64,000 bases of DNA. Origin: Aliarcobacter cryaerophilus ATCC 43158. Its GTDB lineage: Bacteria; Campylobacterota; Campylobacteria; Campylobacterales; Arcobacteraceae. Location of the stretch: the NCBI RefSeq assembly GCF_003660105.1, contig NZ_CP032823.1, positions 682,001 to 746,000 on the forward strand, written 5' to 3'. Under the pieces are notes generated by a model. That model ran no database searches and had not been told where the DNA came from. It saw nothing but the letters and a program-made list of their open reading frames with translations. Below, piece after piece: positions 13,860-18,444 of the stretch (within the stretch, counting starts at the first letter, position 1; each line of letters begins with the position of its first letter). A program made the translations under genes and the position numbers.

Positions 13860-14356
13860 TCTAAAACCTCTTTAGGAACTAGATGTTCAAATTTTCCCTT
13901 AAATCTTATAATTTCTCGCACAATAGTAGAGCTTACAAATGCATGTTCTAGTGTTGGCATTAGGTAAACTGTTTCAAGATTATGATTTATTGAAGAGTTT
14001 GCATATCCCATTTGAAGTTCAAATTCAAAATCACTAACAGCTCTTAATCCCCTGATTATAGTGTTAATTTGTAAATCCTTTGCTAAATCAACCAAAAGAG
14101 TATCGAAACCAACAACTCTTACATTTTTAAGATGAGCTGTAGCAGCTTTTACAAATTCTACTCTTTTATTATGAGAAAACATAGGTTTTTTTAGTTCACT
14201 TTTTGCAACACTTATAATTACTTCATCAAAAACTTTTATTGCTCTTTCAATAATATCTAAATGGCCAATAGTAATAGGGTCAAATGTCCCACTGTATATA
14301 GCTTTTTTATATGAGCCAGTATAGTTATAATCGTTATTTTTCATATCTATTTCCAT
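13850..14356 (-). CDS. coaD: Phosphopantetheine adenylyltransferase
   Basis: This catalyses the fourth step of coenzyme A synthesis from pantothenate, adding AMP to 4'-phosphopantetheine. It is recognised by AIYSGTFDPITIGHLDII (the (T/H)xGH nucleotide-binding motif) and VSSTIVREI near the C-terminus. The first ATG overlaps the ubiX stop by 10 bases and gives 168 residues. A second ATG four codons later (14344) is equally possible, because the ribosome site is weak for both, and either leaves an unusual 13-17 residue N-terminal extension relative to the common MKIAIYPGTFDP start. Confidence 0.95.
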   Translation of the reverse strand: MEIDMKNNDYNYTGSYKKAIYSGTFDPITIGHLDIIERAIKVFDEVIISVAKSELKKPMFSHNKRVEFVKAATAHLKNVRVVGFDTLLVDLAKDLQINTIIRGLRAVSDFEFELQMGYANSSINHNLETVYLMPTLEHAFVSSTIVREIIRFKGKFEHLVPKEVLECM

Positions 14357-14901
14357 CTTTTATATAGTTTGTTATCTATTTTTAATAAATCCATCCACTT
14401 TCCAATAATAAAGTTTTCCATATCTTCTAAAGTTTGCTGAGAGCTATAATATCCCAAAATTGGAGGTGCAATTACAACTCCTAAATTTGATAGTTTTAGC
14501 ATATTTTCTAGCATTATTGTATTTAGAGGTAACTCTCGTGGAGCTATTATAATCTCTCTTTTTTCTTTTAGCATTACAGAAAAAGCTCTAGTAATTAAGC
14601 TATCTGCTATTCCTATACTGCATTTTGCCAAAGTATTTGAGCTGCAAGGAAGAATAATCATTTTATCAACTTTAAATGAGCCAGATGCTAAAGAAGCTCC
14701 TATATTTTTGTCTTTAAAAAGTGTTATATTTTCATCATTTTTGAATATCTCTTTAGTTTTTATACCATTTTCAAGTTTTAAAGCCTTTTTAGAACTTTTT
14801 GAAAATACTACAAAAATCTCAATATCTTTTGGTATTTGTTTTATAAATTTCAAAGCTAGATTTACTCCACTAGCACCTGAAATTCCAACTGTTAATCTCA
14901 A
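14347..14901 (-). CDS. ubiX: Flavin prenyltransferase UbiX
   Basis: UbiX prenylates FMN to make the cofactor of UbiD-type decarboxylases. The 184-residue flavoprotein has GISGASGVNLALKF at its N-terminus, a LASGSFKVDKMIILPCSSNTLAKCSIGIADSLITRA core, and the late REIIIAPRELPL block typical of the family. It is the first gene of the leftward operon that runs through coaD, tmk, hisS, speA and cysE. In organisms with the futalosine menaquinone route, UbiX also serves that pathway's decarboxylase; which applies here cannot be told. Confidence 0.95.
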   Translation of the reverse strand: MRLTVGISGASGVNLALKFIKQIPKDIEIFVVFSKSSKKALKLENGIKTKEIFKNDENITLFKDKNIGASLASGSFKVDKMIILPCSSNTLAKCSIGIADSLITRAFSVMLKEKREIIIAPRELPLNTIMLENMLKLSNLGVVIAPPILGYYSSQQTLEDMENFIIGKWMDLLKIDNKLYKRWK

Positions 14902-15064
14902 TATTTACCTCTTGAATTATTTAATTATAAAAAGCTTGATAGTAGCAAATAAAAGCTTCAAGTTTTATTTTATGTTAAAATATGTATAAGCTTTTATTAA
15001 ATATTAAAAGGATAACATTTTGTATAAATTTATATATAAAACTATTACAAAAAGAGGTACAAGA

Positions 15065-15694
15065 ATGTCAAAAAATTTCACATATATTAGAAAAAATAGA
15101 AATAATATGAGTTATACAGATGAGCAAAAAGAACTTATTTCAAAATATATTTTAAAAAATTCATTAACTATTTATAAAAATATTGAAATAGATATAAATA
15201 GACCTTCTCAAGAGAAAAATATTATTCAACTTTTAGAAAATTGTGAAAAAAACTCTACAATAATTGTTGCAAACTTAAATGTTTTTGGAAGAACTATTGA
15301 TAGAATTTTAGAAATTGTAAAGTTTTTATTATCAAATAAGATAAGAATAATTGTTGTTGAACAAAATTTAGATTTGCTAAGTAACGATGATAAACTCACA
15401 TTGATGATTTTAAATATTATAAAAATGACTATCTCCTTAGAAAAAGAGCTTCAAAGCTTAAGAACAAAAGAGGCATTAAATGCAAAAAAAGAAGATGGTA
15501 TTGCTCTTGGAAAACCAAAAGGAACTATTCAAAAATCAAAATTCGATGAGCAAAGAGGCAAAATTGAAGAATTGCTAGCTATGGGTCTTAGTGTTAGAAA
15601 AATATCAAAACTTTTAGGATACAACAACCATATAGGTTTAAATAGTTATGTAAAAAAGAGAGATATTAGAGCGATTGCAGTTGATAAAAAGTAG
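15065..15694 (+). CDS. Degenerate serine recombinase-like protein, catalytic serine absent
   Basis: The 209-residue protein has the layout of a small resolvase/invertase: an N-terminal catalytic-like domain (about 1-140) with TYIRKN, STIIVANLNVFGRTIDRI and MTISLEKELQSLRTKEAL, then a GKPKGTI hinge and a helix-turn-helix (SVRKISKLLGYN). Aligned with gamma-delta resolvase, Arg8 is kept (Arg9), but Ser10 is Asn11, Asp67 is Asn72 and Arg68 is Val73; Arg71 is kept as Arg76. It should not be able to cut DNA and may be a DNA-binding or structural protein. An in-frame TTG at 15020 with its own AAAAGGA is possible, but ATG 15065 has AGAGG and starts at the fold. It precedes rplI. Confidence 0.78.
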   Translation: MSKNFTYIRKNRNNMSYTDEQKELISKYILKNSLTIYKNIEIDINRPSQEKNIIQLLENCEKNSTIIVANLNVFGRTIDRILEIVKFLLSNKIRIIVVEQNLDLLSNDDKLTLMILNIIKMTISLEKELQSLRTKEALNAKKEDGIALGKPKGTIQKSKFDEQRGKIEELLAMGLSVRKISKLLGYNNHIGLNSYVKKRDIRAIAVDKK

Positions 15695-15766: not shown

Positions 15767-16213
15767 ATGAAAGTATTATTAATAAAAGATGTAAAAACTT
15801 TAGGAAAAGCAGGTGAAATCAAAGAAGTAGCCGATGGGTATGGTAAAAATTTTTTAATAGGGAAAGGCTTAGCTTTACAAGCAACAAATGAAGTAATAGC
15901 AAAACATAATGCAGAGCAAAAAAAGTTAGCACTTAAAGAAGAAGAAGAGATAAAATCTGCAAAAGAATTAGCAGAAAAAATAAATTCAACAAAGCTTACA
16001 ATTAGACATAAAGCTGGAGCAAATGGTCAGCTTATTGGGAGTGTTACAAATAAAGAGATAAGTGAAGAGCTTGAAAAACAATTCTCTATTATGGTTGATA
16101 AAAAAAGTATAGTTGTTGATAATAAATTAAAAAATATTGGTATTTATGAAGTATCTTGTAAATTAGGACACTCTGTAAATGCAATTTTAAAAATCGATAT
16201 AATCGCTGGTTAA
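15767..16213 (+). CDS. rplI: 50S ribosomal protein L9
   Basis: The 148-residue protein has the L9 signature at its N-terminus ([21 protein letters not shown] followed by [14 protein letters not shown]), the long connecting helix rich in Lys/Glu/Ala and the C-terminal RNA-binding domain ending [18 protein letters not shown]. An AAAGGA ribosome site is present. hslV starts two bases after its stop, so the two are co-transcribed, as is common in Campylobacterota. Confidence 0.98.
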
Positions 16214-18138: not shown

Positions 18139-18444
18139 ATGAAAATCATAACTTTTTGTCAAATTGATGAGTCGCTTTTTAATCCAGAATTCGATGTTGA
18201 GTCTTTTCACTCAAAAGGTGAAGGTAAAGCTGATATAGCAATAATAGACATAGAATCTATTTTTGAATATGAAGAAAATAAACATAGTGTTTGCAAAGAA
18301 AAATATGTATCTATTGCAATAATAGAAGATGAGAGCGATTATGATGCTTTCAAAAACTTTGGAATAGATGCTTGGATAAAATATTCAGATATTTCTCAAA
18401 TCAACAATTTAATAAATCTTTTAAATAAAAGATTTTTGTCTTAA
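18139..18444 (+). CDS. Small protein with a degenerate receiver-like fold
   Basis: This is a 101-residue soluble protein that I cannot place in a named family. Its second half resembles the end of a response-regulator receiver domain: a strand ending ADIAIIDIES (Asp at the phospho-acceptor-like place), then YVSIAIIEDESDYDAFKNFGIDAWIKYSDISQINNLINLLNKRF, where IKYS aligns with the usual (V/I)KP(F/P). The first half is too short to contain a complete receiver acidic pocket, so phosphorylation is doubtful. A GGGGGA ribosome site precedes it. tatD starts about 11 bases after its stop, probably by coupled translation. Confidence 0.6.
   Translation: MKIITFCQIDESLFNPEFDVESFHSKGEGKADIAIIDIESIFEYEENKHSVCKEKYVSIAIIEDESDYDAFKNFGIDAWIKYSDISQINNLINLLNKRFLS

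Follow-up and report, generated by a model that had tools for sequence, protein, structure and literature searches.

The gene at 15065-15694 most probably encodes a domesticated, catalytically dead Tn3-family resolvase that would act as an autorepressing DNA-binding protein. We put the probability of this reading at about 0.72, both DNA binding and repression being predicted from sequence. The gene lies in the window, a stretch of 64,000 nucleotides from Aliarcobacter cryaerophilus ATCC 43158. What has been lost comprises the catalytic residues (Ser in most orthologues, Arg68 in all of them), the crossover site and the tnpA neighbour, while the sequences retain the E-helix, the DNA arm and the helix-turn-helix (HTH), together with predicted res-type half-sites in the gene's own promoter. 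The features referred to below are as follows.

14347-14901, minus strand: ubiX-like flavin prenyltransferase gene (named from its sequence), the divergent neighbour common to most orthologues
14983-15017, no strand: putative upstream dimer site of 35 bp, TGT...ACA, TGTATAAGC...GATAACA, proposed by analogy with res-site ends on weaker evidence than 15021-15049
14985-15001, plus strand: TATAAG-CTTTT-ATTAAA, like the HP1043/HsrA activator box and resembling TTTAAG-5-TTTAAG
15015-15023, no strand: element 1, ACATTTTGT, conserved at the junction and sharing bases with the extended -10 TTTTGTATAAA
15021-15049, no strand: putative dimer site of 29 bp, TGTATAAATTTATATATAAAACTATTACA, recognised with a matrix from active Tn3 TnpR res half-sites only
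15053-15057, plus strand: Shine-Dalgarno sequence AGAGG
15065-15694, plus strand: serine-recombinase-like (TnpR-like) gene, catalytically dead, 209 aa (reading frame, Pfam, alignment, AlphaFold2, Foldseek)
Regions of the protein: core 4-109 (with N11 and V73), E-helix 110-143, DNA arm 144-158, HTH 159-199
15767-16213, plus strand: rplI, the downstream neighbour in most, not all, relatives

The resolvase-like protein and its active site

The reading frame is unbroken over all 209 codons and follows the AGAGG sequence, in agreement with the preliminary description of an intact gene with a good ribosome site. An in-frame TTG is present upstream, at 15020; since it falls inside the putative operator, translation is likely to begin with the ATG at 15065. 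The protein matches the Pfam Resolvase family with an E value of 5e-12, past the family cut-off. Its AlphaFold2 model (mean pLDDT 89.8, pTM 0.63) has its strands and helices arranged as in a resolvase and includes the long E-helix, the arm and the HTH helices, and a Foldseek search of the PDB with this model gave Tn3 and gamma-delta resolvases among the top matches. The resolvase layout with a C-terminal HTH, proposed earlier from the letters alone, is thus borne out by profile and by structure prediction. The top NCBIfam and PHROG models are of DNA-invertase type (NF009949, E 4e-22; PHROG 125, E 1e-17), and the Mpi-type invertase model NF009949 reached 78.8 bits, below its curated cut-off of 272 bits.

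Alignment with 27 intact relatives located the losses in the active site. Ser10 corresponds to Asn11 in the window protein and Arg68 to Val73, both original residues being present in 27/27 relatives, and Arg45, found in 26 of the 27, corresponds to Lys51. Arg8 (R9) and Arg71 (R76) are retained. The replacement of the nucleophile by Asn11 and the survival of Arg9 and Arg76, both claimed before, are therefore confirmed, and no other serine of the window protein aligns at the nucleophile position. The claimed change of an Asp-Arg pair to Asn-Val holds for its second half only: at the position of D67, now Asn72, all 27 intact relatives already have Ser, so the change was from Ser-Arg to Asn-Val.

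The same pattern extends over 84 orthologues: at position 11, 74 have Asn, seven Ser and three Ile, and at position 73, 80 have Val and none has Arg; R9 is kept in 80/84 and R76 in all. By comparison, the 21 other paralogues all carry both Ser and Arg68. Every one of the seven orthologues with Ser at position 11 is devoid of Arg68. Three of these are nested within the genus of the window as a sub-clade (L024, L031, L033), and their Ser11 looks like a later substitution; the other four form the long-branch genus g5 (L067-L070), which combines Lys9 with Ser11, keeps the HTH, has no array upstream and carries the gene in unrelated genome places.

Tn3-family relatives and the upstream array

The closest sequences outside the family, taken from a scan of GTDB genomes, are 40-46% identical and come from Legionella, Paracaedibacter, a Rickettsia endosymbiont, Ktedonobacteria, Methyloglobulus and others. 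Ser10, Arg68 and Arg71 are present in all 27 full-length ones, and these relatives have in common the GKPKGTIQKSKFD arm and a GLSVRKI..LGY.NHI.LN.Y HTH. In 3/3 annotated plasmid records a Tn3-family transposase gene is divergent from the relative's gene (in one of the three a DUF4158 gene stands between the two), and for this reason we regard the nearest outside relatives as TnpR resolvases. In 23/25 active relatives the upstream sequence contains a palindromic crossover core, A[AT][CT]GnnCGTT, in most cases AACGnnCGTT, which typically precedes the start by 109-121 bp and is flanked by TGTATA... and often ...TTATACA; it is followed by a TGTATAATT block and then, nearer the gene, by a GTTAAACATTAAC-like block. 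This upstream region is the res region of the active relatives. The preliminary description had set the gene apart from mobile-element remnants, and this did not hold: the gene is derived from a mobile element, with Tn3-family TnpR as its nearest relatives and res-type sites predicted in its promoter. No Tn3-family tnpA was found near it, its neighbours being ubiX-coaD-tmk-hisS and rplI-hslVU, and the crossover core is present in 0/78 family promoters, against 23/25 for the active relatives.

A res region is laid out in dimer sites of about 28 bp that end in TGT...ACA. In the Arcobacteraceae the region ahead of the gene repeats the motif WWWACAWWWTGTWWW at about -83, -49 and -18, with a spacing of 31-34 bp, and when each TGT is read to the next ACA the repeats become dimer sites of 28-31 bp, inverted pairs that have TGTATAA at one end and TTAAACA at the other. 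Of 78 promoters, 44 contain two elements at a distance of 30-35 bp (200 shuffles: mean 0.76, maximum 4) and 29 contain three (shuffles: mean 0.005), counts for which shuffling overstates independence because the upstream sequences share kinship. A matrix built from half-sites of the active transposons scores 12.7 bits on the family promoters, against 5.6 +/- 0.34 on shuffles and 3.2 bits on the downstream flank of the family genes, and a matrix from site I only scores 10.4 bits against 5.6 +/- 0.29; the active transposon sites thus detect the array 16-20 SD over shuffles, where the half-sites are AT-rich within an AT-rich genome. Both the array counts and the matrix tests point to predicted dimer sites of the accessory type, TGT...ACA, upstream of the gene. 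Among 104 genomes the two-element pattern gave 51 matches, all but one at the orthologue gene, counting one at a contig end where that gene is cut off; the reversed control pattern gave few.

Of this array the window has kept the two putative dimer sites at 14983-15017 and 15021-15049. This shortening is common to its clade, where the right half-site is weak (1.0 bit with the active half-site matrix). The genome contains the 15-mer TAACATTTTGTATAA a single time, at 15013-15027 of the window. Element 1 coincides with the extended -10, so its conservation is partly that of a promoter, and element 3 abuts the Shine-Dalgarno sequence. An orthologue of genus g8 (L072:1-219) appears to have an extended array, with more ACAWWWTGT-type elements upstream of the usual three.

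Tn3-family TnpR represses its own transcription at res. By analogy, a TnpR that lost strand exchange and kept sequence-specific DNA binding would, as a dimer, bind the TGTATAA-type sites through its HTH and minor-groove arm, and the bound dimer could cover the -10 and the ribosome site and so repress the gene. The steady low level of protein that results might then serve elsewhere, on sites that are weaker or have diverged, or close by on the promoter of the divergent ubiX gene.

Distribution, constraint and alternative readings

The gene is single-copy, with an orthologue in 99/104 Arcobacteraceae genomes at the search threshold used; this count includes one genome (G018) in which only a paralogue matched, the gene being apparently cut at a contig end. 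The five genomes with no match are draft assemblies of 61-95% completeness. In a search of the phylum the lowest orthologue scored 264 bits and the next match 154 bits; on this gap, candidates outside Arcobacteraceae were rejected as orthologues, being paralogues or transposon relatives. The earlier suggestion to look for conserved orthologues is answered positively for Arcobacteraceae (99/104, with Asn11 in 74/84) and negatively for the other families of the order, which have distant Ser-bearing paralogues only. The genome of the window itself has a second resolvase/invertase-like gene, Ser-bearing and 31% identical (L002:1498-2115, contig C1 at about 55.8-56.4 kb), which adjoins the gene of a DNA cytosine methyltransferase. 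The small second contig C2 has yet another serine recombinase gene, the third (L003:1339-1902), whose active site looks intact (YARVST...KLDRLAR).

The orthologues form one clade (support 100/98) that largely tracks the genera, and inheritance is vertical. With dN/dS of 0.02-0.20 over eleven close pairs the gene is under purifying selection. Mean identity among the orthologues rises from 0.54 in the core through 0.78 in the E-helix and 0.82 in the arm to 0.88 in the HTH, whereas among the Ser-bearing paralogues core and HTH are equal (0.44 each; E-helix 0.51, arm 0.57), which argues that the constraint falls on DNA binding. Nearly universal presence in the family, purifying selection, a conserved place and conservation of the DNA-binding part together support the earlier proposal of selection for something besides strand exchange. 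Absence of the gene from all close relatives, which would have refuted that proposal, does not hold.

That the protein regulates its neighbours, either the divergent ubiX-coaD-tmk-hisS operon or the downstream rplI-hslVU, is compatible with autorepression, and we consider it unlikely though well within reach. In most genera ubiX is divergent and rplI downstream, rplI-hslV-hslU following the gene directly in many genomes; the res of a Tn3 element also sits between divergent tnpA and tnpR, and nothing resembling a terminator was found in the interval that separates the gene from rplI. Against this, the genus g6 orthologues lie in an unrelated place and still have an element, and inserts of about 1-4 kb, containing two-component genes, a PF03601 membrane protein and a CBS-domain protein, part the gene from rplI in several genera. 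The rplI neighbourhood, named earlier as a thing to check, is found in most relatives and is the weaker side of the synteny, the ubiX-coaD-tmk-hisS side being steadier. With these inserts, and with the gene relocated to unrelated places in g5 and g6, an operon with rplI as the key to function is weakened. In genus g9 (L094, L095, L098, L105) a CBS-domain gene (MFAIYN..., about 220 aa) begins about 26 bp downstream on the same strand and is possibly co-transcribed with the resolvase-like gene. In the window, a 101-aa reading frame after hslU (18139-18444) is conserved in the family at that place and has no Pfam match at E 0.01.

The array might instead be bound by another regulator, the resolvase-like protein acting elsewhere or via protein contacts. 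Other regulators may indeed act at this promoter: 50/77 promoters have a box of the HP1043 type (consensus from PMC8345958) ahead of element 1, with a spacing that is mostly constant and is exactly 26 bp in 42 of them (shuffles: mean 2.2 of 77). Genus g5, whose orthologues are 44-49% identical, keeps the HTH with no array, which also fits. However, the half-sites have the length of a resolvase dimer and were picked out with a matrix derived from active TnpR relatives whose arm and HTH are nearly the same, and a general regulator would have more targets than an array seen essentially only at the orthologue gene in 104 genomes; we hold this reading to be improbable.

As a chromosomal silencer of incoming Tn3-family elements, the protein would bind their res, repress tnpA and block resolution. 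The arm, HTH and half-site in common with active Tn3 TnpR systems would suit such a role, but no live or intact res site I of the active-relative class was found in the 104 host genomes, leaving no present-day target in view, and the nearest systems that are active belong to other phyla and classes, so that we give it very little credence. A recombinase with an unusual active site is hardly tenable: in its favour are the surviving counterparts of Arg8 and Arg71 and the Ser11 of a few orthologues, but Arg68 is lost in 84/84 and Ser in 77/84, the crossover core is absent upstream in 78/78, and the sequence drifts in the catalytic core and hardly changes in the part that binds DNA.

To return to the domesticated, autorepressing resolvase, sites beyond its own promoter were sought by pattern. 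The strict dimer pattern gave no other target in the genome of the window, and in 12 genomes it was no more frequent than its reversed control; a single 15-mer element with 2 mismatches was not commoner than the control in the window's own genome, and the small g5 and g8 genomes yielded no convincing further targets. One site pair conserved between two g5 species was rejected, as it falls within a coding sequence, apparently pdxA. The suggestion of a DNA-binding regulator or nucleoid protein therefore fares unequally: DNA binding is most likely, judged from sequence, and a general nucleoid protein is not favoured, because the only recognisable sites lie at the gene itself. Since g5 keeps the HTH with no array, autoregulation cannot be the only function, which argues for other targets even though the strict patterns found none. 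We tentatively propose, at somewhat less than even odds, that a single domestication before the radiation of Arcobacteraceae gave a dedicated DNA-binding regulator, or else a protein of local architecture, whose targets are not confined to its own promoter, the operator being the leftover accessory half of res.

Significance and comparison with known systems

Domesticated transposases are well known. A literature search on inactive serine recombinases as regulators, and on this locus in Arcobacter, found nothing relevant, including no family-wide dead serine resolvase with a res-like operator. A resolvase turned DNA-binding protein, with a res fossil as its operator, is the probable interpretation; it would show a recombination module becoming a regulatory one, in which tnpA, the crossover site, Ser and Arg68 were lost and the arm, the HTH and the accessory-type sites kept. 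It also corrects the automatic annotation as 'recombinase' and offers a ready test system of one small protein and one defined putative operator of about 70 bp.

Of the known systems, the Mpi-type DNA invertases (NF009949, PHROG 125) are the best NCBIfam and PHROG matches, but the match is below the cut-off, the active-site residues here are inactive and no invertible segment is known at this locus. Gamma-delta/Tn3 resolvase on res (PDB 5cy1, 1gdt) has a fold like the predicted one at a sequence identity of about 17%, and its dimer sites of about 28 bp with TGT...ACA ends are alike, whereas the catalytic residues and the crossover site are missing here. Closest are the TnpR proteins with the GKPKGTIQKSKFD arm, from Legionella fallonii plasmid II, Moellerella pW65-a and Megaera plasmid p2, which have the same fold and E-helix; the window protein has a mean identity of 84% in the arm and 66% in the HTH with the 27 active TnpR relatives. 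Both systems have TGTATAA half-sites upstream, a promoter-like -10 within the sites and a divergent gene opposite. The TnpR systems possess Ser10, Arg45, Arg68, a nearby Tn3 tnpA and crossover site I, all of which are lost here, where the gene, unlike theirs, has become a permanent part of the chromosome in a single bacterial family.
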